Part shown: piece after piece, positions 6,684-32,198 of the stretch | How the letters are laid out: each line of letters opens with the position of its first letter | Numbering within the stretch: position 1 is the stretch's first letter | Origin: Gemmatimonadaceae bacterium | GTDB taxonomy: Bacteria > Gemmatimonadota > Gemmatimonadetes > Gemmatimonadales > Gemmatimonadaceae | Reading direction: 5' to 3' | Assembly (NCBI GenBank): GCA_022843265.1 | Contig: JALHNZ010000040.1 | Coordinates: 1-32,198, forward strand | Length of the DNA: 32,198 nt | Notes under the pieces: model-generated | Database searches by the model: none | What the model was told of the DNA's origin: nothing | Seen by the model: the letters and a program-made list of their open reading frames with translations, nothing else | Translations under genes and position numbers: made by a program

Positions 6684-6854
6684 ATGGATGTGCGAATGGA
6701 ACGTCGTGCATCGCGTCTCGAGTCTGTGACCGCCGGTATCGCTGTGGTTCGCGCGGTCCGTCGCGGCAGTGATCCGCGACTTCGCAAAGCGTTTGGCCCG
6801 AAAGTTCGCGCCCCCGTGAGCTCTTTCGGCGCGTTTTCGCGCGTGTGCTGGTGA
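6684..6854 (+). CDS. Possible small basic protein in the 6580-6907 gap (weak)
   Basis: This is the only candidate coding frame in the 328-bp gap. GGAGGG (6669-6674) lies 9 bases before ATG 6684 and the 56-residue product is arginine-rich (MERRASRLE, AVVRAVRRGSDPRLRK) without signal or membrane span. The rest of the gap shows only the hairpin at 6577-6603 and a weak CCGAAAG/CTTTCGG inverted repeat near 6798-6833. The ribosome site is the main argument; it may well be non-coding leader. Confidence 0.22.
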   Translation: MDVRMERRASRLESVTAGIAVVRAVRRGSDPRLRKAFGPKVRAPVSSFGAFSRVCW

Positions 6855-6907
6855 GCCGTGTCACACACCACGGCATAAGCCATCGGTCCCACCCGCACAC
6901 TCGCCGC

Positions 6908-9900: not shown

Positions 9901-10405
9901 GCGCATGCCCTCAGCGATCAGCGACCCGGTTGGTCGCTACGTGGTGGAAGCGTTCGACGCCGACAATCGCCTGATGGCCGAGCATCGTTTCACTCCGTTT
10001 GCGGTGAATGACGCGGATGCAGAGACGGAGGCGTTTGTGGTGGCGGTGCCAATGGCGCCGACCGACCAGGCGCGTGTGGCGCGGCTACAGGTGCGTGACC
10101 TTGCTGTCGGCCGTGTGTCGGTGCGTCGCAGCACGCGCGTTGGCGACGCTGTACGCGATGCACGGTCTGCCCTGGAGGCGAAGCGAGACGCGGCGGGTAT
10201 CATGACCGCCACGTGGTCACCGTTGAGCGTGCCGGCGGTGCTGGTGCGCGATCTGGTGTCTGGCGAAGTGCTCGCGATCGCTCGCACCGGTCGGCTCGAC
10301 CTGTCGCAGTTCAGTCGCATGGCGCGCCTTGAGATGCACCTGTCCAGCGGCGTGCGCAGCGAACGCGTGGAAGTCGAAACCTCCACGGGAGTGATTCGCC
10401 GGTGA
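6908..10405 (+). CDS. Large lipoprotein metalloprotease (metzincin) with Ig-like, PPC-like and CARDB-like domains
   Basis: An 1165-residue exported protein. A lipobox VAAC (C23) followed by a Gly run marks it as a lipoprotein. Then, roughly: two Big_2 Ig-like domains (37-118, 121-203), three PPC-like beta domains (204-314, 319-425, 430-550), a third Big_2 domain (551-635), a CARDB-like domain (637-765, ending EVDPDNTVAETNESDNAF), a zinc peptidase domain with HEMGHTLGLRH (H889-H899) and a Met-turn FDIMTYC near 938-942, and a beta-rich C-terminus to 1165. HExxHxxGxxH plus Met-turn defines a metzincin; the layout recalls M66/M43-type enzymes. Probable role: cell-surface degradation of proteins or glycoproteins. 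ATG 6908 is chosen for the signal peptide; no ribosome site is evident. It overlaps the next gene by GTGA. Confidence 0.85.
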   Translation: MRALVKPSPRLLLAALFFLVAACGGGGGDGGTPPIVIASVRITPSTLELEPGQTSLLTAVPIDAGGVVVGGRTVSWGSSDAAIATVSSSGLVTAVSDGVATLTATSEGRSASALVTVRTRVASVSIAPTTLELRVGSADGQLVAQPRSSTGALLARTVTWTSATPTVATVSQTGAVTAVSAGSATITASVDGVIGSAQVQVTQDPCSVLRRVQLGQNVSSALSTSDCRLRDNSAIQLYEFTITTRQKVEIEMSSTALDPYLLLADTSLNVMDEDDDGGIGLNARILRTLDPGRYIVFANTYAANTFGSYQLAVRPAPAACVNGRTTLVPSTTDAQLSQQSCLQRDGSFEDRYDIQLSQAAALRLQVSSSAIAPFVVLTAPDEAVIDKTNAARGATATLEKELTAGRYTVLVRGRRDETGPYRLVVQPAVNPCDVTRVLTLPQTIQETFAQGDCALSDQAGGPVRFFERYALVLSDRTSVQINMTSSAVDAYLLIQNAQTGEVVAENDDVAQGNTNARIVADLPAGQYIVNATTYETGETGAFSLSVARVQVANVTLNVSPSTLALQPGQTQTITASVSGTSNTAVTWSSSNTGVATISETGLVRAITAGTATITVRSQADPARTATVTVTVSANTAGSVNLDIGAAYLVQTVQQLDGRVPLVAGRQALARVFVRGSRSGLAAVPVRVRIVRGTTTLGTYTGSATPNTTVDQACCSANILIPPDVVQTGISFLAEVDPDNTVAETNESDNAFPVSGSPRALDVQDVPPFSVRLVPVAQNRNGQVGAASETLFNMFRSIWPMRVINASVRQPLVIDYTIGTQNFDDWIRLVTDMEMVRQMEGGTAYYYGLVRTTGRNGVLGLANGIPARTAIGVDEGSDFGAELSRETFAHEMGHTLGLRHAPCGGAAGPDPNYPFPDGTMGAWGADISGNRIIPPSGFDIMTYCRPPQWVSPYHFSKVLDFRRQNPQGAVQAHGPTTDVLLVVGTVRGGALSVDPAFSLRMPSAISDPVGRYVVEAFDADNRLMAEHRFTPFAVNDADAETEAFVVAVPMAPTDQARVARLQVRDLAVGRVSVRRSTRVGDAVRDARSALEAKRDAAGIMTATWSPLSVPAVLVRDLVSGEVLAIARTGRLDLSQFSRMARLEMHLSSGVRSERVEVETSTGVIRR

Positions 10406-17174: not shown

Positions 17175-18551
17175 CTACACCCGCACCGCCTCCACCGTGC
17201 CCTGCGCACGACTCCGCTCCGCCGCAAACGCCATCAGGTGACTTTCAATCGACTGCGCAATCGTTGACGTGAGTCGCGACGCATCCTGATGTGCGACCGC
17301 CTGCACAAAATCGGCCACCATGCGCCAGTCACCTCCACCGTGACCCGACTGCGCGTCATCGTTGCTCTCTTCAACAACATCACTGATCCACTGCGTGACG
17401 CGCCCAGTGCGGAAATCATGCGCTTCAAGATGCTGCATGTTGCCATCGAGAAACCCGTGTGATCCCATCACACGCGTGCGTCGGCCACTCATTGGTGTGA
17501 ACGCATCCATACTGAACGATGCCGTGACATCATCGTCAAAGCTCAGGTTGACGGTGTAGTGATCACACTGATCGTTGTCCATGCGATACACACAGCGTCC
17601 ATAGTCTGACGTGCGCAGTGCACTGAGAATGTCTTCGCCACGCGCGGGTTCGTCGGCCGCAAGGTTGTTGAACACATACAGTCGCTGACGCTGCTCGTGA
17701 TAAATGCGCACGGCTGAATACGGGCACGAACGCTCCACCGCACAGCCATCAATGCATCGCGGCGTGCTGCCTTCGGGCGCGTTGTCGGACTTGAACCACG
17801 ACAGTGCACCGAACGCCTGCAGCTCACGCGTGGGGCGATCCACCAACCAGCGCAGAATGTCGAGATCGTGACTGGACTTAGCGAGAATGATCGGTGTAGA
17901 CGTGCTGCTCGATCGCCACGTTCCACGCACATACGAATGCGCCATGTGCACATAGCCGATCGGTTCCATGTGCTGAATGTTCACTAGTCGACCAATCGCG
18001 CCGTTGCGAATGAGCTGACGCATGTGTGCAAAGTACGGTGCGTAGCGAAGTACATGACACACGGCCACGATCCTGCCCGTGCTGCGTGCGCGCTCGAGCA
18101 ACGCGCAGCACTCCGCCTCCGTAGGCGCAATCGGTTTTTCGAGCAGCACGTCGTAGCCCGCATCAAGCGCCGCCATGCACGGCGCAAAGTGCAGCTGATC
18201 CGGTGTGCTCACGATGATCGCGTCCGCAAACTTCGGTCGCGCAAACACCTCTTCCCAGTCAACAAACCGCGCGTCGTGTGGCACGCTGTGCCGGTCGCCG
18301 TACCCATCACGGCGCACGTCGGAAGGCTCCGCCACTCCCACGATGTGCAAATGATCCGGGTAGGCGAGCGCAAAGTTGCCGTACACATTGCCGCGAGCTC
18401 CCGCGCCCAGCGTGATCGCGGTAATGGCACGCGGCGGCGGCACGAGTTGTCGCGCGTCGGGCAGGTACAGCGGCTGCCCGCGCTCGTTGGTGGCGTCAGT
18501 GGAAAATGGGAACGACGCGTCGGCGTTGGAATCGTGGGGCGTTGAAGACAT
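17175..18551 (-). CDS. Gfo/Idh/MocA-family oxidoreductase
   Basis: A 458-residue NAD(P)-dependent sugar or inositol dehydrogenase-like protein without signal peptide. The Rossmann motif is ITLGAGARGNVYG (about residues 46-58), followed by VEKP-type motif LLEKPIAPTEAE carrying the catalytic-region Lys, and CHVLRYAPYF. A cysteine-rich insert, CIDGCAVERSCPYSA, is typical of a long subgroup of the family. The C-terminal part is the usual beta-sheet domain ending in SHLMAFAAERSR. The start ATG 18551 is preceded by weak TAGAG. It lies 58 bp after the desaturase gene on the same strand. Substrate unknown; 3-keto sugar formation is one option, given the DUF1080 domain encoded 3 kb away. Confidence 0.85.
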   Translation of the reverse strand: MSSTPHDSNADASFPFSTDATNERGQPLYLPDARQLVPPPRAITAITLGAGARGNVYGNFALAYPDHLHIVGVAEPSDVRRDGYGDRHSVPHDARFVDWEEVFARPKFADAIIVSTPDQLHFAPCMAALDAGYDVLLEKPIAPTEAECCALLERARSTGRIVAVCHVLRYAPYFAHMRQLIRNGAIGRLVNIQHMEPIGYVHMAHSYVRGTWRSSSTSTPIILAKSSHDLDILRWLVDRPTRELQAFGALSWFKSDNAPEGSTPRCIDGCAVERSCPYSAVRIYHEQRQRLYVFNNLAADEPARGEDILSALRTSDYGRCVYRMDNDQCDHYTVNLSFDDDVTASFSMDAFTPMSGRRTRVMGSHGFLDGNMQHLEAHDFRTGRVTQWISDVVEESNDDAQSGHGGGDWRMVADFVQAVAHQDASRLTSTIAQSIESHLMAFAAERSRAQGTVEAVRV

Positions 18552-18609
18552 CTCTACCACTACACCACAACGCGCACGAGCGCAAACGCTGGCGAAAGCC
18601 GAGCCCGTG

Positions 18610-19605
18610 CTAACGCGGCTGCGGCCAGCGCACAAGCCGACGAGTGTCTTCATCCCACAACGCCAGCCGCGCGCACGAAAATCCGTCACGAAATGAGATG
18701 TGTCGCACACTATTGAAGAGCGCGGTGCTCCGATGGCACTCGACCAATCGATATGACGGCACAAGCGGGCTCAAATGATGAATGTGGTGATAGCCGATGT
18801 ATCCGGTGAACCACGCAAGCACATCGGGTAACGCGTAGTACGACGAGCCTTCGAGTGCGGCTCGCGCAAAATCCCACTCGCCGTCGGGCGCCCAGTACGT
18901 GTCTTCGAACTGATGCTGCACGTAAAACATCCACATGCCCACGGTAGACGCGATCACCGTCACGGGCCCCTGCACCAGCAGAAGATCGCGCCAGCCCACC
19001 AGCGTGACCATTGCCCAGACCAACAGCGCGATCGCCACATTCGTCATCAGCATGCTGCGGCGTTCACGCTTCCACTCGGCGCGCGCGAACATCGGCAGCC
19101 GCATCATGATCACGAAGTACAAGACCGGCGCGAGACCGAACATCACGACGGGATGCCGCATCAGGCGATAGCGCCGCTGCGCCCACGCCGACATGGCGCG
19201 GTACTCGCGCACCGTGATCGTTTCAATATCAACGTGTCGTTTGTCGAGATTACCTGATGTGGCGTGATGTGTGCCGTGAAAGTGCCGGAAGTAGCCGTAC
19301 GGCAGCAGTGTAAACGGCGCACAGAGGCGCCCAATGATCGTGCGCCACCGGCGCGATGCGAGAAAACTGCCGTGCCCACAATCGTGCTGCACAATGAATG
19401 TGCGCACCACAAACCCTGCCGCCGGAAACGCCAGCGCGAGCGTGAGTAGATACGACACCGAGAGCGAGCGATACATCAGCCACCACAGCACCAGAAACGG
19501 CGGCAGCGAGGTCGCGAAGGCCCACCACGCTTGCGCGGCATTCGGGTGCTCGTAGAGACTCACGTGCGCGCGTAGCGCATCGGCCGACGGCAGTGATTTC
19601 AGCAT
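18610..19605 (-). CDS. Membrane fatty acid desaturase (DesA-like)
   Basis: A 331-residue integral membrane di-iron desaturase that puts a double bond into membrane lipid acyl chains. The three histidine boxes are intact: HDCGH (74-78), HFHGTHH (108-114) and HHIHH (273-277). Hydrophobic spans flank them (about 30-70, 155-175, 190-235). The pattern is that of the delta-12 type DesA/FADS family. ATG 19605 lacks a ribosome site, but TACACT (a possible -10 box) ends 8 bases before it, so a leaderless mRNA is possible. The Gfo/Idh/MocA gene follows after 58 bp. Confidence 0.88.
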   Translation of the reverse strand: MLKSLPSADALRAHVSLYEHPNAAQAWWAFATSLPPFLVLWWLMYRSLSVSYLLTLALAFPAAGFVVRTFIVQHDCGHGSFLASRRWRTIIGRLCAPFTLLPYGYFRHFHGTHHATSGNLDKRHVDIETITVREYRAMSAWAQRRYRLMRHPVVMFGLAPVLYFVIMMRLPMFARAEWKRERRSMLMTNVAIALLVWAMVTLVGWRDLLLVQGPVTVIASTVGMWMFYVQHQFEDTYWAPDGEWDFARAALEGSSYYALPDVLAWFTGYIGYHHIHHLSPLVPSYRLVECHRSTALFNSVRHISFRDGFSCARLALWDEDTRRLVRWPQPR

Positions 19606-19694
19606 GCGTACGGAGTGTACACCGCCCTCGCGCGCCGAACATCCGTCACATGACGTAGAGCCTGCAACGTTGACGGGGAGCGTTACCCCGACGG

Positions 19695-19717
19695 CGTGTG
19701 CGGGATTCCCGCACGCG
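19695..19717. other. Perfect GC-rich hairpin between desaturase and macro-domain genes
   Basis: GTGCGGG-ATT-CCCGCAC (19698-19714) is a perfect 7-bp stem, extended by CG/CG pairs across one T-G pair to 19695-19717. It lies in the 208-bp divergent intergenic region, 97 bp before the macro-gene start. It has no T tract. It may be a regulator site or leader structure for the macro gene. Confidence 0.35.
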
Positions 19718-19813
19718 CGAGACGTGATGCACACGCCATGCTGTATGAGGCGACGCGACAGACCGCCAGAAATGCGCGCCCCACCATCCCATCATCACCT
19801 CTCGGGAGTCTGA

Positions 19814-20409: not shown

Positions 20410-23400
20410 ATGAGCCCGACTCGAACGCCCCTGACCCGTTCCCGGGTCAGGCGCCGGTTCGCCCCCGTCACCGCGCTCGCCGCGGCGCTGCTGCTGTCGG
20501 CGACGCCGACGATCTCGGCTCAGACACCTCAGACCATTCGTGTGGTAACCGACGCCTCGGGATCGCGGCTGCAGGTGGACGGCCGAGATTTCATGGTGCT
20601 CGGCATGAACTGGGATTATTTCCCGATCGGCCAGAACTACGCGTATAACTTCTGGGGCCAGTCCGACGAGTTCATTCGCACTGCGCTCGACCGTGAGATG
20701 TCGCTGCTGAAAAGCATGGGCATTAACACCATCCGCCAGTACAACGGCGTCCCGCCCAGATGGGTGCGCTACATCTACGAGAACTACGGCATTTACACCG
20801 TTCTGAACCACGCCGTGGGGCGTTACGGCGTCACCGTGGGCGGTGCGTTCAAGCCGAACACCGATTATTCAGATCCGCGTGTCCGGGAACTGCTCAAAAG
20901 CGAAGTCACAGCGCTGGTCGAGCAGTTCCGCGGTACACCCGGGCTGCTCATGTACATGCTCGGCAACGAAAACAACTACGGGTTGGAGTGGAAGTCGGCG
21001 GAGACGGAGAATCTGCCGGTGGGCGAACGTAACGCAGCCAAGGCCCGATATTTGTATTCGTTGTTCGGCGAGATCATTCGGGAGATCAAAACGCGTGATC
21101 CGGCGGTGCCTGTGGCGATGGCAAACGGTGACCTGCAATACATCGACATCATAGCCCAGGAAACGAAAGGGCTCGATGTGTTCGGCACGAATGTGTATCG
21201 CGGAATTTCCTTCGGCAATCTGTTTGCCGAAGTGCGTGAGAAGCTCGGACTCCCGGTGATGTTCACCGAGTTCGGCGCCGACGCGTACAACGCCAAAGAG
21301 CGTCGCGAAGATCAGCTCACGCAGGCGCGCTATCTGCTTGGTCAGTGGCAGGAGATTTACGCGCAGTCCGCCGGGAAAGGCGGCGTTGGAAACTCGATTG
21401 GTGGCATGACCTTCCAATGGTCAGACGGTTGGTGGAAGGTCGGACAGGAAACCAATCTCGATGTTCAGGACACCGACGCCGGTTGGTCAAATGAGGCGTA
21501 CCGCGAAGATTTCATGCCGGGTGACAACAACATGAATGAAGAGTGGTGGGGCATCATGGCCAAAGGCCCCACCGATGCGAAGGGTCACTTCCAGTTGTAT
21601 CCGCGCGCGGCGTACTACGCGTTGCAACGCGCGTACACCTTGGCGCCCTACGGTCCGGGCACGGACACCGCGCGCATTCGGGCGCATTTCAGTGCGATTG
21701 CGCCGGCGGCCATGGAGTTGCTGGCCAATGGCAACCGCGCGGCGCTCGGCGCAGAGATTGGGGATCGTTATCGCATTGCCGGCATGCGACTTGAACTCTC
21801 GAGCTTCAATACCGGCGGCAGCAACATCAGCACGCCAGCGGAGGGCACCGCTCCAAGCCCTACCGCGCGACCGGCTGTTCGCGGATTCGATCACCTTGAA
21901 TCGTACTTTGTTGATTTTGAGGCACGACCGGCGTCGAATGTGACGGCCATGTTGTCACTCAATGTGACCGGCAACATTCCAGACAATCCGATCAACGAAC
22001 TGTTCTACGAAAATCGCGCCCGTACCCGCACGCTGCTTACCGATGGCGGACCGTCGGTGAGCACGGAAGGACTGGAGCGTTTGCGAGTGTATCGCGCAAG
22101 TCTGCGTTGGGACGAGCGCGACTTCCGCCTCGATGGTTTCTATCGCACCGGGCATTACCACTGGGGTTACGAAGGCGATTTCTTCGGGATGTACCGTGAA
22201 GCCAACTACGGCCCGAATATCGACATCTACGGCGGTGAGGCACCGCTTGGCGTGGAGTTCACCGGAAAGCGCGCGCTGTCGGGCTTGAAGCTGGCGTTGG
22301 GTCCGGAGCTGTGGTGGGGAGCCAATCCCGCGGTGCTCGCGAAGTACCGCAAGCAAGTTGGTCGTTTCACCGTGACCGGTGTGTATCAGGAAGATCTTGC
22401 GCAACGCGGGGCGACGTCGAGCTCGTTCGCTATCCCGCAGCCGCAAGTGCGCGCCACCACCATGCACGTTGCGACCACGGTGGGACCCGCTGGCGTGGAG
22501 CTGGGCGGTATCTGGGGTGGCAATACACGCGTGGGTCGCACGTTCCAGATTGCCGATGGTGAACCCGGCAACTATCGCGTGCTGCAAGATCGTGTGAAAG
22601 ACAGCGACGCGCTTGGTGCGAAAGCGAAGATCACGATTTCCAGCGGCCGGTGGAACTGGTATGCGCAAGGTGCGGCGATGGGCCTTGTTGCTGACGGCGG
22701 ACAAACGTCAACAATGACGTTCACCGGGTGGGGGCTCAAGGACAGCGGCATGGGCAACCAGTGGAATGCGTTGAGCGGCTTCACGTATTCGGTAGGCAAT
22801 CTGCAGATCGCGCCCAACTTCCTGTGGCAGAAGCCGATTGTGGGTCCAGTGCCGAGCGATGTGCCCGCGCCTGGGCGTCCGCGCAACATTCTTGACGATC
22901 CATTCTCGGTGCGATGGAATCGTGAAACCGTGGGCGCGGAGTTGTTGCTGACGTTCGATCCCACACCGGCCACGTACATGCACTTGTGGGACTCCGATAC
23001 GCGCGAAGATGCGCGTCTGGCCGGCACGCTTGGCTTCACGTATCGCCACCTGCCCACCACGCAGGACGCCGCGATTGGTATTCTCGCCGACGGACGCACG
23101 TTCTTCGCGTTTCCCGGCGCCGCACCGGCGCAGGACTTGTGGGAAGTGCGTAGCCGAGTGGTGTCGCGGCTGGGGCAGGACGTGCGTTTGATCGCCAACC
23201 TCTTTGGTGGCACAGCGCAGGCGAATGGCGACAGCGATCGTTTGCTGCGTCGTTACGGCGGTGAGCTGCGCGCGGTGCGCAATCAGATCAAGGTGGCGGC
23301 GTCGGCCAAGTTCAATGATTGGGGTCCGTTCGACTATCACCGCGATTTTAATCTCACGTTCCCCGAGCAGTACATGGCCGATGTGTCGTACGTGCTTGGC

Positions 23401-23595
23401 ATTCCAAACTGGACCGACGCGCCGGCCACCCGCTTTGGTGTGCGCGGTACGTGGCGATCTCTCGACCGGTTCTCGCCGCGCTTCTGTCCGGCCGAAGTGC
23501 CGAATGCGTTGGGAACGCCTACGTGCGATCCCAGCGCACCTGGGTCGCGCGGTTCGGAGTGGGAGATTCGCACGTACCTCACGGTTGGTTGGTGA
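20410..23595 (+). CDS. Exported clan GH-A (GH2-type) glycosidase fused to an outer-membrane beta-barrel
   Basis: A 1061-residue protein with signal peptide (cleavage near ISA-QTP, residue 37). Residues about 42-450 form a TIM-barrel glycosidase: FMVLGMNWDYFP, SMGINTIRQYNG, LGNENNYG with the probable acid/base E187, and VMFTEFGADA with the probable nucleophile E287, the spacing expected for clan GH-A. A Thr/Pro/Ala linker at about 478-490 leads to about 565 residues of alternating beta pattern (LRVYRASLRWDERDFRLDG, FTVTGVYQEDL, GRWNWYAQGAAMG, WEIRTYLTVGW) that ends in Trp, like outer-membrane porins. It is therefore probably barrel-anchored, with the enzyme domain on one side of the outer membrane. 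ATG 20410 has GAGG 5 bases upstream. The stop overlaps the first GH3 start (GTGA). Substrate is inferred from neighbours. Confidence 0.82.
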   Translation: MSPTRTPLTRSRVRRRFAPVTALAAALLLSATPTISAQTPQTIRVVTDASGSRLQVDGRDFMVLGMNWDYFPIGQNYAYNFWGQSDEFIRTALDREMSLLKSMGINTIRQYNGVPPRWVRYIYENYGIYTVLNHAVGRYGVTVGGAFKPNTDYSDPRVRELLKSEVTALVEQFRGTPGLLMYMLGNENNYGLEWKSAETENLPVGERNAAKARYLYSLFGEIIREIKTRDPAVPVAMANGDLQYIDIIAQETKGLDVFGTNVYRGISFGNLFAEVREKLGLPVMFTEFGADAYNAKERREDQLTQARYLLGQWQEIYAQSAGKGGVGNSIGGMTFQWSDGWWKVGQETNLDVQDTDAGWSNEAYREDFMPGDNNMNEEWWGIMAKGPTDAKGHFQLYPRAAYYALQRAYTLAPYGPGTDTARIRAHFSAIAPAAMELLANGNRAALGAEIGDRYRIAGMRLELSSFNTGGSNISTPAEGTAPSPTARPAVRGFDHLESYFVDFEARPASNVTAMLSLNVTGNIPDNPINELFYENRARTRTLLTDGGPSVSTEGLERLRVYRASLRWDERDFRLDGFYRTGHYHWGYEGDFFGMYREANYGPNIDIYGGEAPLGVEFTGKRALSGLKLALGPELWWGANPAVLAKYRKQVGRFTVTGVYQEDLAQRGATSSSFAIPQPQVRATTMHVATTVGPAGVELGGIWGGNTRVGRTFQIADGEPGNYRVLQDRVKDSDALGAKAKITISSGRWNWYAQGAAMGLVADGGQTSTMTFTGWGLKDSGMGNQWNALSGFTYSVGNLQIAPNFLWQKPIVGPVPSDVPAPGRPRNILDDPFSVRWNRETVGAELLLTFDPTPATYMHLWDSDTREDARLAGTLGFTYRHLPTTQDAAIGILADGRTFFAFPGAAPAQDLWEVRSRVVSRLGQDVRLIANLFGGTAQANGDSDRLLRRYGGELRAVRNQIKVAASAKFNDWGPFDYHRDFNLTFPEQYMADVSYVLGIPNWTDAPATRFGVRGTWRSLDRFSPRFCPAEVPNALGTPTCDPSAPGSRGSEWEIRTYLTVGW

Positions 23596-25811
23596 CCACG
23601 CGAAGCGCAGGTCGTTCAGCGTCTGTGGAGCAGCAGATCACCGCTTTACTTGCCCGCATGACGCTGGACGAAAAGATTGGCCAGTTGGCGCAGGTGAATG
23701 CGGCGGGTGGTCACGTTCCCGATCACCTGCGCGATGCGATTCGTGAAGGACGCATTGGTTCGGTGTTGAATGAAGTGCATGTCGACACCGTGAATGAGAT
23801 ACAGCGACTGGCGGTGCACGAAAGCCGACTTGGTATTCCGCTGCTGATCGGGCGGGATGTGATTCACGGCTTTACCACGGTGTTCCCGATACCGCTGGGG
23901 CAAGCGGCGAGCTGGAATCCGACGTTGGTCGAAGAGGGCGCACGCATTGCGGCGCAGGAAGCTGCGGCGTGCGGCGTGAATCTCACGTTCGCCCCGATGA
24001 TCGACATCTCGCGCGATCCGCGGTGGGGACGGGTGGCCGAGTCGCTGGGTGAAGACCCGTATCTCACGGGCGTGCTTGGTGCGGCCATGATTCGCGGCTT
24101 TCAGGGTGATGATCTTGCACGCGATGGCAGTATTGCCGCATGCGCCAAACACTTTGCTGGCTACGGTGCCAGTGAGAGTGGCCGCGACTACAACACCACC
24201 AATATTCCGGAGAACGAGTTACGGAATGTGTATTTGCCGCCGTTCAAGGCCGCGGTAGATGCCGGTGTGGCCAGCCTGATGACCTCGTTTTCTGATCTCG
24301 ATGGCGTACCCGCTTCGGCGAACACTTTTCTGCTCAAGCAGGTTTTGCGCGACGAGTGGCACGCCGATGCCATGGTGATCAGCGACTGGGAGTCCATCAA
24401 ACAGTTGGCCGTGCATGGGTTCACCGAGAATGACCGGGAATCCGCGTATCAGGCAGCCACAGCCGGTGTGGATATGGAAATGGCGAGCACCGCGTACGCC
24501 GATCATCTCGCGTCGCTGGTTCGCGAAGGTCGCATCTCTGAACCGACCGTCGACGCCATGGTGCGTAATGTCTTGCGCGTCAAGTTTCGACTTGGTCTGT
24601 TTGACAACGCACAGACCGATGCCGCTGCGTACGCGCCCGCTGCAAACGCTGATCACTTGCACGCCGCCTACAACGCCGCGGTAGCGAGCGCGGTACTGCT
24701 CAAGAACGATGACTGGGCACTGCCGCTCCATGTGGAGTCACTCGACCGCATTGCCGTGATTGGACCGCTCGCCGATGATCCGTACGAACAGCTGGGCACG
24801 TGGATTTTTGACGGCGATGCGGCGCACAGTCGCACCATATTGCAGAGCATTCGCGAGTTTGTTGGCGAACGGGCCACCGTGGAGTTTGCGCGCGGCGTAC
24901 AGACCACACGTAGCCGCAGCCACGAACACGTGGCAGAGGCCGTCGCACTGGCTGCGCGTAGTGATGTGGTGATTCTGGTGCTTGGTGAAGAAGCGATTCT
25001 GTCTGGCGAAGCCCACTGCCGCGCCGACATCACGTTGCCTGGAGCGCAGCAAGGCCTCCTCGAAGCGGTGAGCGCCACTGGTACCAAGGTGGTGCTGGTG
25101 CTCATGGCGGGTCGACCACTCGCGCTGGAGTTGGCGGTGCCACACGCGTCTGCGATGCTGTACGCGTGGCACCCGGGTACCATGGGCGGACAGGCGATTT
25201 CTGATCTGCTCTTTGGCGTTGTGTCACCGAGCGGCAAGCTGCCCGTCACGTTTCCTCGTGTGACCGGGCAGATTCCCATTTATTACGCGCACAAACACAC
25301 CGGCAAGCCAGCCACGGCTGAGTCGTTCATTCACATGGAGGACATCGAGCCGCGTGCCCATCAGGTCTCGGTGGGCAATACGTCCTTTCATCTCGACGCG
25401 GGCTTTACGCCACTTTTTCCGTTCGGGTTTGGCCTGTCGTATTCGCATGTGGAATACGAGCACATGCAGTGCAGCACAGCTGTACTCACCATGACTGGGC
25501 GGATTACGATCAGCGCTGACGTCGTGAACGTTGGTCCGCGCCCTGTAGAAGAAGTGGTGCAGCTGTATGTACGTGATCTTGTGGGCGATGTCACGCGGCC
25601 AGTGAAAGAGCTGAAGGCGTTCACGCGTGTGCAACTGGCGCGTGGAGAACGACGCCATGTCGCCTTTACGCTGACAGCGCGTGATCTCGCGTTTTACGGA
25701 CGGGCGCAACGCCTCATTGTGGAGCCCGGACGCTTTCATGTCTGGATTGGTGGCAGTTCCAATCCGGAGTTGCGAGCTGAGTTTACGCTGGTCGACGACA
25801 CTGCGCGATGA
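23592..25811 (+). CDS. GH3 beta-glucosidase (BglX-like, cytoplasmic form)
   Basis: A 739-residue family 3 glycoside hydrolase that removes glucose from the non-reducing end of beta-glucan oligosaccharides. The N-terminal barrel (about 10-340) includes KIGQLAQVN, LLIGRDVIHGF, RDPRWGRVAESLGEDPYL, CAKHFAGYG and the nucleophile D265 in VISDWESI. The C-terminal domain (about 375-600) carries LGEEAILSGEAHCRAD with the probable acid/base Glu. A fibronectin-like third domain (about 655-735) ends the chain. Unlike E. coli BglX there is no signal peptide, so it should work in the cytoplasm. GTG 23592 lies in the stop of the fusion gene; the long upstream extension of this frame only overlaps that gene. 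Confidence 0.9.
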   Translation: MTTRSAGRSASVEQQITALLARMTLDEKIGQLAQVNAAGGHVPDHLRDAIREGRIGSVLNEVHVDTVNEIQRLAVHESRLGIPLLIGRDVIHGFTTVFPIPLGQAASWNPTLVEEGARIAAQEAAACGVNLTFAPMIDISRDPRWGRVAESLGEDPYLTGVLGAAMIRGFQGDDLARDGSIAACAKHFAGYGASESGRDYNTTNIPENELRNVYLPPFKAAVDAGVASLMTSFSDLDGVPASANTFLLKQVLRDEWHADAMVISDWESIKQLAVHGFTENDRESAYQAATAGVDMEMASTAYADHLASLVREGRISEPTVDAMVRNVLRVKFRLGLFDNAQTDAAAYAPAANADHLHAAYNAAVASAVLLKNDDWALPLHVESLDRIAVIGPLADDPYEQLGTWIFDGDAAHSRTILQSIREFVGERATVEFARGVQTTRSRSHEHVAEAVALAARSDVVILVLGEEAILSGEAHCRADITLPGAQQGLLEAVSATGTKVVLVLMAGRPLALELAVPHASAMLYAWHPGTMGGQAISDLLFGVVSPSGKLPVTFPRVTGQIPIYYAHKHTGKPATAESFIHMEDIEPRAHQVSVGNTSFHLDAGFTPLFPFGFGLSYSHVEYEHMQCSTAVLTMTGRITISADVVNVGPRPVEEVVQLYVRDLVGDVTRPVKELKAFTRVQLARGERRHVAFTLTARDLAFYGRAQRLIVEPGRFHVWIGGSSNPELRAEFTLVDDTAR

Positions 25812-25842: not shown

Positions 25843-27615
25843 ATGACCGCAACACTCGCCAATCGCGAGACGACCGCCTACGTGGAATCGCTGCTCGCCC
25901 GACTCACGCTTGAGCAGAAAGTCGGGCAGATGATACAGCCCGAACGCATGGCGATTACGCCCGATGAAGTCGCTGAATACCACATCGGTTCGGTGCTCAG
26001 TGGTGGTGGATCCGCACCAGGCGCAAACACGGCCGCTGACTGGATTGCGATGAACGATGCGTACTGGATGGCCTCCATGCGCGACGCCCCCAATCGTGTG
26101 CCGATTCCGTTGTTGTATGGCGTAGACGCGGTGCACGGGCACGCCAACGTGCTGGGAGCCACGGTGTTTCCGCATAACATCGGTCTCGGCGCCACACGTG
26201 ATCCGGATCTCATGGAACGCATTGCGCAGATCACCGCCCGCGAGGTGCTGGCCACTGGTGTGGATTGGACGTTTGCGCCGACACTCGCTGTGGCCAAGCA
26301 CATTTACTGGGGGCGTACGTACGAAAGTTTTTCGGATGATCCGCACCTTGTCTCGTCGTATGCCGGCGCGCTGGTGCGCGGATTGCAGCAGGAGTGTGGA
26401 CGTGGCGGCGTGGTGGCGTGCGCAAAACATTGGGTGGGTGATGGTGGAACCACCAATGGCCGCGATCAGGGCAATACCGCGATCTCCGAAGAGGAACTTG
26501 AGCGGACGCATATGGCCCCCTATCTGCCCGCGCTGCAGGAGGGAGTGCTCACGGTGATGGCGTCGTTCAACAGCTGGAACGGCGTGAAGTGTCACGGCAA
26601 CCGCTATTTGCTCACCGAGGTGCTCAAGGAGCGTCTTGGCTTTGGCGGGTTTGTGATTTCCGATTGGGATGGTGTGGACTACTTGTCTGACGATCCTGCA
26701 GAAGCGATGGCGATGGCCGCGAATGCCGGTGTGGACATGTTCATGGTGTCCGTGGAGTGGAAGCGATGCATTACGCACCTCCTGGATCATGTGCGCACGG
26801 GTGTTGTGCCAATGTCGCGCATTGATGATGCGGTGCGTCGTATTCTCACCGTAAAGCATCGCTACGGCTTATTTGATCGGCCGCGTCCGGCCGAGCGGTA
26901 TTGGTCTAGCCAAGACTGTCTCGGCGCACCTGAGCATCGTGAGGTGGCGCGCGAAGCGGTGCGCAAATCGCTGGTGTTGCTGCAGAACACCAACAACATC
27001 TTGCCGCTCGACCGTACGGCACGCCTTCTGGTGGCTGGCAAGAACGCGGACAACCGGGGGCATCAGTGCGGTGGCTTTACCGTGGCGTGGCAGGGTACGA
27101 ATGGCAACGAGCAGATCATTGGTGGCACCTCGATCTGGGAGGGCATCAAAGCGGTGGCGCCGCATGCACAACTCAGCGTCGATGGCAGCGCGGCCAATGC
27201 TTCGGCGCACGACGTCGCGATTGTGGTGATCGGCGAGCGGCCGTACGCCGAAGGGATGGGTGACATCCGGCCTGCCGGTCTGGTGGCGCCGGGCTCGAGT
27301 CCCGAAGGACGCACTGCCAAACTCGATGCGTATGGTCAAACCATTGAACTCGCCGTGTTGCATCCGGAAGATCTGGCCACCATTCGCGCGATCACCAGAC
27401 ACGGTATTCCCGTGGTCGCGGTGCTTGTGTCGGGCCGCCCGCTGATTGTGGATACGGAGCTCACGGAGACCAAAGCGTTTGTGGCCGCGTGGTTGCCGGG
27501 CTCAGAAGGACAGGGCGTCGCCGATGTGCTGTTCGGTGATCATGCATTCACCGGCGTGCTGCCGTTTGCGTGGCCACACATTACAACCCGCTGGCCGCGC
27601 GGTTACGGGCTGTAG
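25843..27615 (+). CDS. GH3 exo-beta-glucanase/beta-glucosidase (ExoP-like, short)
   Basis: A 590-residue GH3 enzyme of the ExoI/ExoP type: LLYGVDAVHGHANVLGATVF, RDPDLMERIAQITAREV, FAPTLAVAKHIYWGRTYESF, ACAKHWVGDGG and the nucleophile D274 in VISDWDGVDY. The C-terminal domain has SLVLLQNTNNILPL, CGGFTVAWQG and LPFAWP ending RGYGL. Known relatives release glucose from beta-1,3/1,4-glucans. It lacks a signal peptide and the FnIII domain. ATG 25843 has no ribosome site; a 9-codon mini-ORF (25808-25837) starting in the previous stop codon ends 5 bases before it and may relay ribosomes. It differs from the first GH3, so the two may split linkages or chain lengths between them. Confidence 0.9.
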   Translation: MTATLANRETTAYVESLLARLTLEQKVGQMIQPERMAITPDEVAEYHIGSVLSGGGSAPGANTAADWIAMNDAYWMASMRDAPNRVPIPLLYGVDAVHGHANVLGATVFPHNIGLGATRDPDLMERIAQITAREVLATGVDWTFAPTLAVAKHIYWGRTYESFSDDPHLVSSYAGALVRGLQQECGRGGVVACAKHWVGDGGTTNGRDQGNTAISEEELERTHMAPYLPALQEGVLTVMASFNSWNGVKCHGNRYLLTEVLKERLGFGGFVISDWDGVDYLSDDPAEAMAMAANAGVDMFMVSVEWKRCITHLLDHVRTGVVPMSRIDDAVRRILTVKHRYGLFDRPRPAERYWSSQDCLGAPEHREVAREAVRKSLVLLQNTNNILPLDRTARLLVAGKNADNRGHQCGGFTVAWQGTNGNEQIIGGTSIWEGIKAVAPHAQLSVDGSAANASAHDVAIVVIGERPYAEGMGDIRPAGLVAPGSSPEGRTAKLDAYGQTIELAVLHPEDLATIRAITRHGIPVVAVLVSGRPLIVDTELTETKAFVAAWLPGSEGQGVADVLFGDHAFTGVLPFAWPHITTRWPRGYGL

Positions 27616-27682: not shown

Positions 27683-29233
27683 CTACGTCGCCAACGCGGG
27701 ACCGGGACTGCCTCGCCGCGCTTCAAGCTGCTCGCGCACTTCGCGAGCCCGTGCCTCGGTAATCGGATACGTTGCCACGGCCCAGATGGCGAGTCCCGAC
27801 GTGACCATGGGAATCACGACATCGCACAGCCGCATCAGGAAAATGGTGTTCTCGGATTGTGCACCAGCCAGCGCAACATCGAATCCGGTGGCGTTGAGCA
27901 GATAACCGCCAGCGGCCAGCGCGGCGGCCATGCCGAGCTTGACCACCCACCAGAAAATCGATCCGAACATACCTTCGCGCCGCTGATACGTCTCGACTTC
28001 ATCGGCGTCCACCACATCGGCAATCATCGAGCCCATGAGTGTGAACAATCCGCCTAGTCCGAAGGCCATGAGTGGAACCGGAAGCAGCAACAACATCGGA
28101 TACTTCGGATTGTAGCAGAACCATTTGAGTCCGTACCCGACAATTGAGAGTCCGGTGCTCACAAAAAATGCTTTGCGTTTCCCGATACGTGTGCTCAGCC
28201 ACGTAATCAGCATGATCACACCAAATGTGGATGCTGCACCGAGTGTGCCCGCATAGCCCGCGTATCGGGCACCCAATTCCTGATCGCCGCTGAACACGTA
28301 ATAGATGATCACGTACGTCTGAAACGACGAGATCATGATGAAACCGTTGAACACCAGGAACGTGGCGACACACAGCTTGATGAACGGCTTCGATCGCAGT
28401 GTGGTCGCAAACCCTTTGCCAAACTCTTTCATGTTCCGGCCAAGCGCGGCGACACGCGATTCCAGCCGCGGCGGAGCGTTGGGATCGACCGCCGCCATAA
28501 CAAAACGCTCGCGAAGAAAGAGCGCGGGCAGAATACCAATTGCGATGGCGACCACACCGATGCCAATGGCCAGACCTTTCGCACCCGCGATCTGGTCGGG
28601 GAACCATGGTTTGTACGTCATGATCCACAAAAACCACGGCGACACGAGATACGCGAGCTGACCAATAAAGTTCTGCACACCCATGAGGCGCGTGCGCTCG
28701 TGATAATCGGGTGTGAGCTCGTATCCCAGCGCGACCCACGGTGTGGCAAATACGGTGTACGCGAGATAGAAAATGATCGAGCCGGTCAGGAAGTACCAGA
28801 AATAGAAAGACTCCGTGCGACCGATTGGCAACTGCCAGAGCAGCGCGAAGATGATGCCAGCCGAAATCGCGCCGACAAAAATGTATGGACGTCGCCGTCC
28901 CCATCGAGACGACGTGTTATCCGAGATGTAGCCCATCATCGGATCAGTCAGCGCATCGGTAATGCGCGGCAGTGCACCAAGCAGGCCAACAAGCGCCGGG
29001 TTCATGCCCAATCCGAGATTGAGCACAATCGCCATGCCGCCAATTGCGGCGGCGAGGAGATTGTTCACGAACGCGCCCATTCCGTAGGCGAGTTTACGCG
29101 GAAACGAGATACGGTCAGCGAGTGCGGTGGAATACTGTGCGGTAAAGCCCGTGTGCCCCGAGTCGTCGATCCGCGCGTGCCACGCCGAGATCGCCAGCTT
29201 CCAGAAGGCGCGCAAACGCGATGCGATACTCAC
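27683..29233 (-). CDS. GPH-family sugar:cation symporter (MFS)
   Basis: A 516-residue inner-membrane transporter of the glycoside-pentoside-hexuronide family (MelB/XynB-like), importing mono- or oligosaccharides with H+ or Na+. Twelve hydrophobic segments are visible. Family signs are LAYGMGAFVNNL at the first helix, DPMMGYISDNTSSRWGRRRPYI after helix 2 (Asp and Arg-rich loop) and MIADVVDADEVETYQRREGMFGS in the C-terminal half. GTG 29233 lies inside the GH16 stop (GTGA), so the two are translated in tandem. Given the neighbours, glucose or short beta-glucan oligosaccharides are the likely cargo, to be cut by the two cytoplasmic GH3 enzymes. Confidence 0.88.
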   Translation of the reverse strand: MSIASRLRAFWKLAISAWHARIDDSGHTGFTAQYSTALADRISFPRKLAYGMGAFVNNLLAAAIGGMAIVLNLGLGMNPALVGLLGALPRITDALTDPMMGYISDNTSSRWGRRRPYIFVGAISAGIIFALLWQLPIGRTESFYFWYFLTGSIIFYLAYTVFATPWVALGYELTPDYHERTRLMGVQNFIGQLAYLVSPWFLWIMTYKPWFPDQIAGAKGLAIGIGVVAIAIGILPALFLRERFVMAAVDPNAPPRLESRVAALGRNMKEFGKGFATTLRSKPFIKLCVATFLVFNGFIMISSFQTYVIIYYVFSGDQELGARYAGYAGTLGAASTFGVIMLITWLSTRIGKRKAFFVSTGLSIVGYGLKWFCYNPKYPMLLLLPVPLMAFGLGGLFTLMGSMIADVVDADEVETYQRREGMFGSIFWWVVKLGMAAALAAGGYLLNATGFDVALAGAQSENTIFLMRLCDVVIPMVTSGLAIWAVATYPITEARAREVREQLEARRGSPGPALAT

Positions 29234-30021
29234 GGCGTCGACTCGTACACGCGTACCCAGTCCACCAGCATGGTTTGCGGGAAGCGCGTTTGCGCATCGG
29301 GCGCGCCGACGAAAGTACCACCAACCGCTACGTTCAGAATGATGTAGAACGGATGGTCGAACACCCACTCGCCGCGCACATCACCGCGTCGCACGGTGTG
29401 GTAGAGCGTGTTGTCTACGAAAAAATCAATTCGTGCATCAGACCACTCGATGCTGAACTCGTGGAAATCATCATCGAACCGCGCCTGCTGTAACTCGTAG
29501 CGCCGTGTGATGGCGTTACCGCCGGAATAGCCCGGTCCATGCACACTGCCGAGCACGACACGTGGTTCCTGACCACGATATTCCATGACATCGATTTCGC
29601 CGGTTTGCGGCCAGCCTACCACATCGATGTCGGCACCCAACAGCCAGAATGCAGGCCAGATGCCCTGACCCACGGGCAACTTGATGCGCGCGGCGATTCG
29701 ACCGTACTGAAACTCGCGCCGTCCTTTGGTCGTGATGCGCGCCGAGGTGTAGGCACGTCCTTGGAAGGATTCGGCACGCGCGGTGATGGCCAGATTTCCG
29801 TTACCATCGAGCGAGGCGTTGTCTGCGCGATTGGTATCGTACTCGAGTTGTGCGTTGCCCCAATCTGTGCCCACATCGAATCGCCAGTTCGCGGCGCTGG
29901 GCAACGTGCCAGCCGCGCCTTCAAACTCGTCTTCCCACACGAGCGTCCACGACGGACCGGGATCCGTGCACCCGAACAGCGAAGCGGCGAGCGCCGCGAG
30001 AATCACAGCCTGACGGGTCAT
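29230..30021 (-). CDS. GH16 laminarinase-type lipoprotein
   Basis: A 263-residue family 16 endo-beta-1,3-glucanase. The lipobox LFGC (C18) makes it a lipoprotein, so it is held at the outer membrane or in the periplasm. The GH16 body includes LVWEDEFEG at the start, GRIAARIKLPVGQGIWPAFWLLG, the catalytic ExDxxE motif GEIDVMEYRG (E142 nucleophile, D144, E147 acid/base), VLGSVHGPGYSG, and HEFSIEWSDARIDFFVDN ending in LVDWVRVYE. The residues match laminarinase-like GH16_3 enzymes with no extra loop to suggest agarase or carrageenase. It follows the ROK gene by 21 bp and overlaps the transporter gene. Fusion to a CBM is absent, but a repeat protein encoded upstream may supply binding. Confidence 0.92.
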   Translation of the reverse strand: MTRQAVILAALAASLFGCTDPGPSWTLVWEDEFEGAAGTLPSAANWRFDVGTDWGNAQLEYDTNRADNASLDGNGNLAITARAESFQGRAYTSARITTKGRREFQYGRIAARIKLPVGQGIWPAFWLLGADIDVVGWPQTGEIDVMEYRGQEPRVVLGSVHGPGYSGGNAITRRYELQQARFDDDFHEFSIEWSDARIDFFVDNTLYHTVRRGDVRGEWVFDHPFYIILNVAVGGTFVGAPDAQTRFPQTMLVDWVRVYESTP

Positions 30022-30042: not shown

Positions 30043-31293
30043 CTAACGAGCGCCGATGGTAGGAAAGAGCGTGGGGTCGTTCAGCGCCGCTTCAAGCACC
30101 AGCGTGGCTGCACCAACGGCCACTCCGAGGGGCCCGAGTTCACTGTGCCGGATTTCGGATGCCGCAACAGCACTGACAAACGTCCGGCGAAGCACGACTT
30201 CACGCAGCGGACCAATGAGGCGATGGCCTACCCGAGTGAGACCCCCACCAATAATGACGGCGGCCGGATTCATCAGATTGAGCAGCCCCGCGATGGCGAT
30301 ACCGAGGTATTCGGCGGCTTCGCACACCACCTGGACGGCGAGTGGATCGTCGGTGAGTGCTGCTGCTTCGATCGCTTCAATCGTGAGCAGTGACGTGCCG
30401 TGCAGCGAAGACGCAGGGAAATCAGGCAACAGCGCGCGCGTGCGTTCGACTAACGCGGACGCGCCAACGAAGGTGACGAGGCACCCTCGATTTCCGCAGT
30501 TGCACACGGCACCCCGTGGATCAATTGCCACATGTCCAATCTCACCGGCTACGCCGGTTGCTCCGCGGCGTACGCGTCCATCGATCACATGACCGGAGCC
30601 GATACCGGTCGCGACTTTGATGTACGCGAAGTCGTCGAAGCCGCGGCCTGCTCCCCACCACTGCTCCGCCAGCGCGCCAAGATTTGCGTCATTGTCGATG
30701 AACAGCGGCAGCGAGAACTGTGCGCGCAACGCTTCGAATCCGTTGCGACCGCCCCAGTCTGGCATCGCCAATGCGGAGAGCCGCTCAGGATGGCGCGGGT
30801 CGACGGGGCTTGGTACGGCGATCCCGATACCGAGCAGACGATCAGGGGCGCCGCGCCACTGGGCCACACAGCGCGAAATCAGCTCGGCCGCCAGCGCGCG
30901 CGTTCCCGTGGGATCAGCGCGCACTGGCCATTCGCGGTACTCAGACGCGAGCACGCCGCCGCGCAGATTGGTCAGTACTACCGTGATGTGTGTGGCGCCA
31001 ATATCGACGCCAACGATACCGCAGGCATCATCCTGAAACTCAAGATTGATCGGTCGCCGGCCACCGCGAGATTCGCCAATGCCGGCTTCCGACACGAGCT
31101 CGGTGGCAATCAGGAATCCCACCAACTCCGACACGGTCGAACGTGACAGCTCCTCACGCCGTGCGATTTCGGCGCGGGAGATCGTGCGTTCTTTCCAGAT
31201 CAATCGCAGGACCGCATCCGCCAACGCGGATGGACGCGGTACAACAGTCGGGGCAACACCTGCGTCGGCGCTACTCGGGAAATGCTCAGTCAT
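30043..31293 (-). CDS. ROK-family transcriptional regulator (NagC/XylR type)
   Basis: A 416-residue repressor of the ROK family. Residues about 37-66 form a winged HTH (ISRAEIARREELSRSTVSEL), and the remainder is a sugar-kinase-like domain: VGVDIGATHITVVLTNLRGG, IDNDANLGALAEQW (about 199-212) and the ROK zinc motif GHVAIDPRGAVCNCGNRGC (H254, C264, C266, C271). Family members bind a sugar or sugar phosphate and release DNA. ATG 31293 has GGAG (31302-31299) 5 bases upstream. Its gene heads or sits within the GH16-transporter string, so it likely controls both strings of the locus, possibly through the repeat at 20325-20349. A small GGCACG/CGTGCC hairpin (31308-31326) lies just upstream. Confidence 0.88.
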   Translation of the reverse strand: MTEHFPSSADAGVAPTVVPRPSALADAVLRLIWKERTISRAEIARREELSRSTVSELVGFLIATELVSEAGIGESRGGRRPINLEFQDDACGIVGVDIGATHITVVLTNLRGGVLASEYREWPVRADPTGTRALAAELISRCVAQWRGAPDRLLGIGIAVPSPVDPRHPERLSALAMPDWGGRNGFEALRAQFSLPLFIDNDANLGALAEQWWGAGRGFDDFAYIKVATGIGSGHVIDGRVRRGATGVAGEIGHVAIDPRGAVCNCGNRGCLVTFVGASALVERTRALLPDFPASSLHGTSLLTIEAIEAAALTDDPLAVQVVCEAAEYLGIAIAGLLNLMNPAAVIIGGGLTRVGHRLIGPLREVVLRRTFVSAVAASEIRHSELGPLGVAVGAATLVLEAALNDPTLFPTIGAR

Positions 31294-31336
31294 CGCCACT
31301 CCGTTCAGGCACGGAGAGTGCGTGCCGAGGTCCAGG

Positions 31337-32198
31337 TCATTTGTGCAAGAGCACGTTGTCGACATAGACCGTATTCGGATCGGCCACCAGGATCAACTGT
31401 GCGAGATGTCCACGGGTTGTGAGTCCGGTGAACTGCGAGAGCGGCACATCCAGGCGCGTCCACTGTCCGGTGCGGAGCCCCGGTGTGGTCGCGGCGGTGA
31501 GCGTGATCTCATGCTCGCGGTCATCACCACCGCCGAAGACCCCATTCGCACCAAAATCCACGAGTTTGATTTTGAAGGTAGCCGGGGCCGCGGTTGGATC
31601 AGCCGTCCAGATATCCATGGAGAAGTGCGTCATGGCCGTGGCATTGATCGGGCTTGACGTGAACTCAATGCCAGCGAACACAAGGTTGGTGTACTTCTTC
31701 ACGGCGTTGCCGGCAATCCGCACGTCTTCCACGTCGGCGTTGTCCCACGAAGCCGACCACGTATTCACCGTGACGTTGGTGTAACTGTCACTGAAGAGTG
31801 AAATCACATCTGCGGCGGCGAATGTTGGCGCCGGTGCCGCTGTTGTGGGTGCAGTGGGCACCACGTTGGAATAGAAGTACAGATTATCGAGGTAGACCGT
31901 GTTGGGATCGCTCACGAAAATGAGCTGCGCCAGGTTGCCGCGCGTTACCAGTCCGGTGAATGCGCTGAGCGGAATGTCCAGACTCGTCCACTCACCTGTA
32001 CGAATGCCGGGCGTGGACGCGGCGTTGAGTGTGAGTTCATGCTCAACATCGTCGCCGCCACCAAACGCACCATTGGCGCCAAAGTCGACCAGTTTGATCT
32101 TGAACGTGGCTGGCAATGCGGTGGCGTCGGGCGTCCAGAAGTCCACATGGAATCCCGTCATCGCGGTCGCGTTGATGGTCGGTGCGGTGAACTCGATG
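31337..32198 (-). CDS. Secreted repeat protein with laminarinase-associated beta-sandwich domains (5' end outside window)
   Basis: The gene runs off the right edge; 287 C-terminal residues are present. They consist of two tandem copies of a about 176-residue unit. Shared motifs: IEFT-INATAMT, ATFKIKLVDFGANG, FGGGDD-EHE-TL, LDIPLSAFTGL, RGNLAQLI and DPNTVYLDN. Between them lies a linker (VVPTAPTTAAPAPTF) and the unit start DVISLFSDSYTNVTVNTWSA. Units with ISLFSD-YTNVTV are common beside GH16 laminarinase domains of Flavobacteriia and are thought to be non-catalytic glucan-binding modules. The missing N-terminus could hold a catalytic domain such as another GH16. It ends 43 bp before the ROK start on the same strand. 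No membrane anchor is present in the visible part. Confidence 0.8.
   Translation of the reverse strand, partial: IEFTAPTINATAMTGFHVDFWTPDATALPATFKIKLVDFGANGAFGGGDDVEHELTLNAASTPGIRTGEWTSLDIPLSAFTGLVTRGNLAQLIFVSDPNTVYLDNLYFYSNVVPTAPTTAAPAPTFAAADVISLFSDSYTNVTVNTWSASWDNADVEDVRIAGNAVKKYTNLVFAGIEFTSSPINATAMTHFSMDIWTADPTAAPATFKIKLVDFGANGVFGGGDDREHEITLTAATTPGLRTGQWTRLDVPLSQFTGLTTRGHLAQLILVADPNTVYVDNVLLHK
31356..31670 (-). repeat. Tandem domain repeat, C-terminal copy
   Basis: This 315-bp stretch aligns without gaps to 31884-32198, an offset of exactly 528 bp (176 codons). Many differences are synonymous. It marks an internal duplication of a glucan-binding-type domain. Confidence 0.8.
31884..32198 (-). 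repeat. Tandem domain repeat, N-terminal copy (reaches window edge)
   Basis: Copy of 31356-31670. The edge of the window cuts the repeat, so more copies may follow. The unit boundary appears to lie after the Pro/Thr/Ala linker near 31830-31860. Confidence 0.8.

Follow-up and report, generated by a model that had tools for sequence, protein, structure and literature searches.

A glycosidase fused to a predicted outer-membrane beta-barrel in a beta-1,3-glucan utilisation locus of Gemmatimonadota: a possible import pore with its own enzyme

Gene content of the locus

The window analysed here, a stretch of 32,198 nucleotides from a Gemmatimonadaceae bacterium, contains an open reading frame for a protein of 1061 residues (Table 1). 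From the N-terminus it is predicted to consist of a signal peptide, a TIM barrel of glycoside hydrolase clan GH-A, a linker that is short and helical, and a beta-barrel of the closed, outer-membrane type. The reading frame, described in an earlier note made from the DNA letters only, is confirmed by full-length relatives, which align over residues ~20-1060 at 52-90% identity, and the existence of hundreds of relatives rules out a chance or spurious frame. The GTG start of the first of two GH3 genes overlaps the TGA of the fusion gene (GTGA), which suggests coupled translation of the two proteins; since this GH3 enzyme has no evident signal peptide, it is probably cytoplasmic. The symporter, GH16, ROK and binding-lipoprotein genes are convergent to the fusion gene and the two GH3 genes. 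For the copy of the binding lipoprotein in the window, neither a Pfam family nor a solved structure was matched, and the window contains no Rfam match.

Table 1. Features of the fusion protein and of the genes downstream of it (positions in the window)
Feature	Position	Strand	Basis
GH/outer-membrane-barrel fusion protein, 1061 aa	20410..23595	+	ORF, relatives' alignment, structure models
Signal peptide, residues 1-38	20410..20523	+	by eye; similar hydrophobic N-termini in relatives
GH158-like clan GH-A TIM-barrel domain, residues 43-415	20536..21654	+	model, structure and profile matches
E187, predicted acid/base, aligned with E137 of BuGH158	20968..20970	+	invariance, profile alignment
E287, predicted nucleophile, aligned with E220 of BuGH158	21268..21270	+	invariance, profile alignment
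Helical linker, residues 416-453, near-constant length, weakly conserved	21655..21768	+	models, alignment
Predicted outer-membrane beta-barrel, residues 454-1060, 22-24 strands	21769..23589	+	model, structure matches; no Pfam match at E<=1
Long loop, residues 580-612 (TGHYHWGYEGDFFG..YGPNIDIYGGEAP), 90% mean identity, candidate glycan contact	22147..22245	+	
Loop, residues 971-983 (WGPFDYHRDFNLT), 95% mean identity, candidate glycan contact	23320..23358	+	
GH3 beta-glucosidase (BglX-like), GTG start	23592..25811	+	Pfam/NCBIfam, sequence
Second GH3 beta-glucosidase, no evident signal peptide	25846..27615	+	start chosen by eye
GPH-family sugar:cation symporter, inner-membrane uptake	27683..29368	-	mechanical ORF; true start downstream
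GH16 laminarinase-type endo-beta-1,3-glucanase, lipobox (SLFGC)	29230..30021	-	
ROK-family regulator	30043..31365	-	
Surface glycan-binding-type lipoprotein, C-terminal part, repeated CBM-like units	31337..32161	-	start lost at contig end

Several other genes of the window were noted in passing. A fatty-acid desaturase (18610-19734) and a Gfo/Idh/MocA-type oxidoreductase (17175-18764), both on the reverse strand, are immediate upstream neighbours of the fusion locus; beside the loci of relatives no such desaturase gene was found. An open reading frame of 993 residues (11820-14801, forward strand) combines a PD40/S9 prolyl-oligopeptidase-type part (~197-730) with a C-terminal 3-keto-disaccharide hydrolase domain (PF06439, 818-990), an unexpected pairing in one frame. 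A protein of 1186 residues (6845-10405, forward strand) combines several copies of the Big_2 domain with a metallopeptidase region of M66/reprolysin-like type, and a transposase-like integrase (rve core and HTH; 378-1610, forward strand), possibly part of an insertion element, is located by the start of the contig.

Domain architecture of the fusion protein

The N-terminus of the protein, like that of its relatives, has by eye the n, h and c regions typical of an export signal peptide, with a predicted cleavage site, read from the sequence, at MSPTRTPLTRSRVRRRFAPVTALAAALLLSATPTISA/Q. An AlphaFold2 model of the full-length protein based on a 53-row alignment (mean pLDDT 78) places a TIM barrel at ~43-415, followed by ~600 residues of long antiparallel strands; the models were built on 53 sequences, and loop 338-378 of the TIM barrel has a pLDDT <50. 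The only Pfam match of the whole protein is a sub-threshold one to the GH2 TIM barrel (PF02836, 18.1 bits vs. a cut-off of 21), and NCBIfam returned only weak beta-galactosidase matches.

The earlier proposal of a TIM barrel with two catalytic glutamates is borne out by the alignment and the model. E187 (GNENNYG) and E287 (TEFGAD) are invariant in 53 of 53 relatives, as are N186, which precedes E187, and many active-site-type residues, and in the predicted (beta/alpha)8 barrel E187 is placed at the end of beta-4 and E287 at the end of beta-7, the positions of the acid/base and the nucleophile in clan GH-A. Foldseek ranked GH158 laminarinases on top for this domain (9p26, E 4.5e-13; 6pal, E 2.6e-12). 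In VIA comparisons GH157 scored Z 27.3 (311 residues, rmsd 3.0); the scores of GH2 glucuronidases, GH5 mannanases and GH158 lay within ~2 Z of this value, so that GH157 and GH2 are inseparable from GH158 by VIA Z alone. The profile of the glycosidase part matched BuGH158 best (E 5.6e-9), GH2 beta-galactosidases coming next (E 1e-5), and aligned N186/E187 and E287 with N136/E137 and E220 of BuGH158, the catalytic residues and mechanism of which have been described (PMC7157763). Assignment to GH2 was considered and rejected since PF02836 remains below its cut-off and the TIM barrel is not preceded by sandwich domains. On sequence and model comparisons the domain is therefore closest to beta-1,3-glucanases, although its relation to GH158 is remote (~15-20% identity), and it would be expected to act on beta-1,3-glucan.

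For the C-terminal 644 residues the profile search recommended earlier gave no Pfam family match up to E 1; the fold is indicated by the structure model instead. Residues 418-1061 modelled alone (mean pLDDT 81, pTM 0.78) form a predicted closed, antiparallel barrel, and the PDB matches listed for this model are outer-membrane barrels throughout (PfeA, MOMP, BtuB, AlgE, maltoporin and OmpF). In VIA comparisons AlgE was the best match (Z 16.5; 274 residues, rmsd 4.5), followed by the OprD family (~15) and FimD (~13.5 over model residues 36-644). The strand parse yields 24 strands, two of which are short, i.e., 22-24 strands, with 12 long loops (mean 24 residues) on one side vs. 11 turns (mean 5 residues) on the other. 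The in-out alternation of the strands is 0.68 vs. 0.36 ± 0.05 after shuffling, a value reached by none of 5000 shuffles. Closure, antiparallel strands, alternation and turn/loop asymmetry are thus all those of an outer-membrane beta-barrel, by prediction. Stacked beta-sandwich modules (CBM- or Ig-like), the alternative fold that had been named for this part, are ruled out by the closed barrel of the model, the listed structure matches and the lack of Pfam matches at E<=1.

A glycosidase and an outer-membrane barrel in one polypeptide, the central claim of the earlier note, is consequently upheld by fold models, structure matches and conservation, but some of its details need revision. The barrel is larger than the ~565 residues estimated, as it starts at ~454 and comprises ~607 residues. 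The C-terminal Trp taken as a barrel signature is present in this protein but is not a trait of the family, many relatives ending in Met, Lys or Asn. The proposed flexible Pro/Thr linker did not hold up: the Pro/Thr stretch (472-490) is the predicted first long loop of the barrel, and the true linker (416-453) is helical, with a predicted helix at 432-450 before strand 1 of the barrel. This linker is the least conserved part of the protein (52% identity), yet the spacing between L405 and T468 is 60-64 residues across 53 sequences; its near-constant length indicates a defined spacing between glycosidase and barrel, as opposed to a loose tether. The most conserved stretches of the barrel are the long loops 580-612, 633-639 and 971-983 (90-95% mean identity). 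Trp, Tyr, Asp, Asn and His are abundant in them, a composition that would be expected of a sugar-selective mouth.

Distribution and genomic neighbourhood of the fusion

The same order of glycosidase and barrel, which the earlier note suggested looking for in other genomes, was found in several phyla and was always fused in the samples. At least 587 pattern-matched relatives occur in GTDB genomes; the best 80 of these are nearly all full length and derive from Gemmatimonadota, Bacteroidota, Ignavibacteriota, Calditrichota, KSB1, Zixibacteria, Krumholzibacteriota, Eisenbacteria and others. The barrel profile was present in 36 of 298 Gemmatimonadota and 35 of 395 Bacteroidota genomes sampled, at approximately one copy per genome and with E values either near zero or absent, the few weak or short matches being fragments. 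With the glycosidase profile only the fused form was recovered at E<=1e-10 from 150 Gemmatimonadota genomes. No barrel-only or glycosidase-only relatives were found in the genomes sampled; two short frames considered as single-domain relatives (L106 and L120) were discarded as truncated stretches, their matches running to the end of the locus sequence. Viral contigs yielded no relatives. Relatives from the same genus are 80-90% identical, and the closest named loci come from Gemmatimonas sp. MAGs, which marks the genome of the window as Gemmatimonas-like. The sequence tree of the fusion proteins groups mostly by phylum, so that wholesale recent transfer need not be invoked and an old family fits. 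By these sequence comparisons the fusion is an old, obligate, single-copy family. Carriers include a Bacteroides finegoldii strain and cultured species of Flavobacterium, Epilithonimonas and Cloacibacterium. The B. finegoldii relative is annotated as a “glycoside hydrolase family 2 TIM barrel-domain containing protein”, probably because it passes PF02836 (35.5 bits).

All 49 loci with full flanks contain at least one of GH16, GH149, GH3 and GPH; GH16 is present in 47, a glycan-binding lipoprotein in 46, GH149 in 25 and GPH in 23, which strongly supports the link to glucan uptake made in the earlier note. The GH16 neighbours are closest to beta-1,3-glucanases, and the GH149 neighbour matches the beta-1,3-oligosaccharide phosphorylase 6hq6 over its whole length (1660 bits). 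An unannotated neighbour of ~1150 residues, considered as a further outer-membrane protein, turned out to be this phosphorylase; among the neighbours in other loci, some proteins lack an annotation. With a laminarinase, an exo-acting glucosidase or phosphorylase, a binding lipoprotein, a transporter and a regulator, the locus is, on its gene content, a beta-1,3-glucan (laminarin-type) utilisation locus. Many of the GH16 and binding proteins carry a lipobox followed by acidic residues (e.g., C-ERDxxLEPA), a combination that is associated with surface export in Bacteroidota.

Some components vary. By lineage, GH3 pairs are swapped against the GH149 phosphorylase (L024, 16851-17873; L026, L034, L059 and others) and ROK regulators against Y_Y_Y/Reg_prop types, while the fusion, GH16 and the binding lipoprotein are constant. 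One locus has an additional periplasmic sugar-binding protein. In relatives the binding lipoprotein (e.g., L046:11192-15229) is composed of CBM11/CBM30-like and Big_2 units with repeated segments of ~150 residues.

Neither TonB-dependent receptors nor SusC were found among the large neighbour open reading frames examined. In the 20 carriers checked, the nearest SusD was at least ~24 kb away or on another contig, and in 6 of them SusD was undetected. The genome studied here has 29 TonB-barrel matches. The fusion itself is not a SusC, as it matches neither Plug nor TonB_dep_Rec (whole protein, E<=0.1; barrel alone, E<=1) and has no adjacent SusD.

Possible role in glucan uptake

Laminarin is among the most abundant polysaccharides eaten by bacteria, and uptake through the outer membrane is generally attributed to SusC/SusD. 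Since the loci described here encode a GPH symporter and cytoplasmic GH149 or GH3 enzymes, oligosaccharides must cross the outer membrane, and because the fusion is the sole candidate for an outer-membrane channel recognised in the loci, we infer that its barrel admits beta-1,3-gluco-oligosaccharides. Unlinked SusC/D or general porins could, however, provide transport in genomes that have them.

Outer-membrane barrels generally have their short turns and both termini on the periplasmic side. The even strand number and the loop/turn asymmetry imply that both termini, and hence the N-terminal glycosidase, are periplasmic unless the latter is threaded through the pore. The models thus make a periplasmic glycosidase probable, and the cell surface, where the earlier note had placed the enzyme, is probably the wrong side. 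The interpretation that we favour, with a confidence somewhat above even, is that the fusion serves as the outer-membrane part of a beta-1,3-glucan locus free of SusC/SusD, in which the barrel admits gluco-oligosaccharides and the periplasmic glycosidase trims them. Surface lipoproteins, i.e., the CBM-bearing binder and the GH16 endo-glucanase, would capture and cleave the polysaccharide; the barrel of 22-24 strands would admit gluco-oligosaccharides, its conserved aromatic and polar long loops serving as a selective mouth; and the GH158-like domain, held at the periplasmic mouth by the helical linker, would trim the chains to a size suited to the GPH symporter, after which cytoplasmic GH3 or GH149 would complete the breakdown. 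Cleavage at the periplasmic mouth would also keep the gradient inward. A more far-reaching version, in which the glycosidase replaces the TonB plug/SusD machinery and uptake becomes directional by cutting of the emerging chains, is somewhat less likely than not.

The main competing explanation is that the barrel is an anchor or an autotransporter-like displayer, which threads the glycosidase to the surface as an endo-glucanase and leaves transport to other porins or TonB receptors. An N-terminal enzymatic passenger followed by a C-terminal barrel is indeed the type V order, the helix at 432-450 precedes strand 1, and GH158 is a surface enzyme in the Bacteroides uniformis locus (PMC7157763). 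Type Va autotransporters, however, have a 12-strand barrel of ~300 residues with a pore helix, a class from which the fusion is excluded by a barrel of about twice that size (~607 residues, 22-24 strands) with conserved long loops. Conservation of up to 95% mean identity in these loops, and lowest (52%) in the linker, is unlike what a helix fitted to a pore would show. Moreover, the neighbouring GH16 and binding proteins already bear surface-type lipid anchors, and 6 of the 20 carriers lack a detected SusD. Surface display therefore seems rather unlikely to us.

Still less probable are two other readings. AlgE, the top VIA match (Z 16.5), is an exporter, and the fusion could serve to export a self-made glucan, as an exopolysaccharide channel that contains its own trimming hydrolase, comparable to PgaA/PgaB or AlgE. 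The VIA matches within 1-2 Z below AlgE are uptake porins, though, no glycosyltransferase was recognised among the neighbours examined, and the loci carry a symporter, phosphorylase, beta-glucosidases and sugar regulators, which makes export very improbable. We assign a similarly low likelihood to a glycosidase domain that is dead or specific for another linkage and acts as a glycan-binding gate for the pore; the remote similarity to GH158 (~15-20% identity) and the nearly equal scores of GH2-type enzymes leave some room for it, but all 53 sequences share both glutamates, N186 and many active-site-type residues without variation. Export, an inactive gate and a barrel that acts purely as an anchor are thus the less likely readings.

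The fusion shares features with several known systems. It has the clan GH-A fold and the NE/E pair of BuGH158 (6pal; PMC7157763) at matching positions and, like the 1,3-glucan locus of B. uniformis described in the same paper, it is accompanied by GH16, GH3, glycan-binding lipoproteins and a regulator; BuGH158, however, is a stand-alone enzyme of a SusC/SusD locus, whereas the present domain is fused to a barrel and is only ~15-20% identical. As in SusC/SusD TonB-dependent importers, a large outer-membrane barrel (22-strand class) is part of a glycan-utilisation locus, but neither a plug domain nor a SusD partner was found here and a glycosidase takes the N-terminal place of the plug. AlgE, PgaA and BcsC are likewise polysaccharide-related barrels, although these are exporters in synthase operons with separate or periplasmic helpers, in contrast to a catabolic locus with the enzyme in the same chain. 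The open-licence literature searched contains no description of such a fusion or of a SusC-less glucan locus with such a protein. Bacteroidetes CAZyme clusters that lack susCD-like gene pairs and target beta-1,3-glucan with GH16/GH17 and GH3 have been reported in a paper on GH149 (PMC5827456) and are possibly the same loci; in the available text of that paper no outer-membrane component is proposed for these clusters and no barrel fusion is described. A Maribacter laminarin proteomics paper, as far as its available text goes, mentions only SusC/D and not the fusion system sought there.

Domain architecture, barrel fold, catalytic pair, obligate fusion, the gene content of the locus and the lack of a SusD next to it are supported by sequence and structure prediction. 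Glycan-utilisation loci are already known, but there is a real chance that the fusion represents a distinct class of outer-membrane transporter, and it may be an import pore that carries its own enzyme and has so far had no name. It provides a concrete outer-membrane candidate for SusCD-less glucan loci, occurring in about one-tenth of the genomes sampled from two phyla, and the cultured carriers make it testable. If the enzyme-coupled pore is true, it would clearly exemplify the union of a pore with its processing enzyme in one molecule and provide a further outer-membrane route for polysaccharide fragments in Bacteroidota, Gemmatimonadota and other phyla of the FCB group, by a protein that is now annotated as GH2-like.
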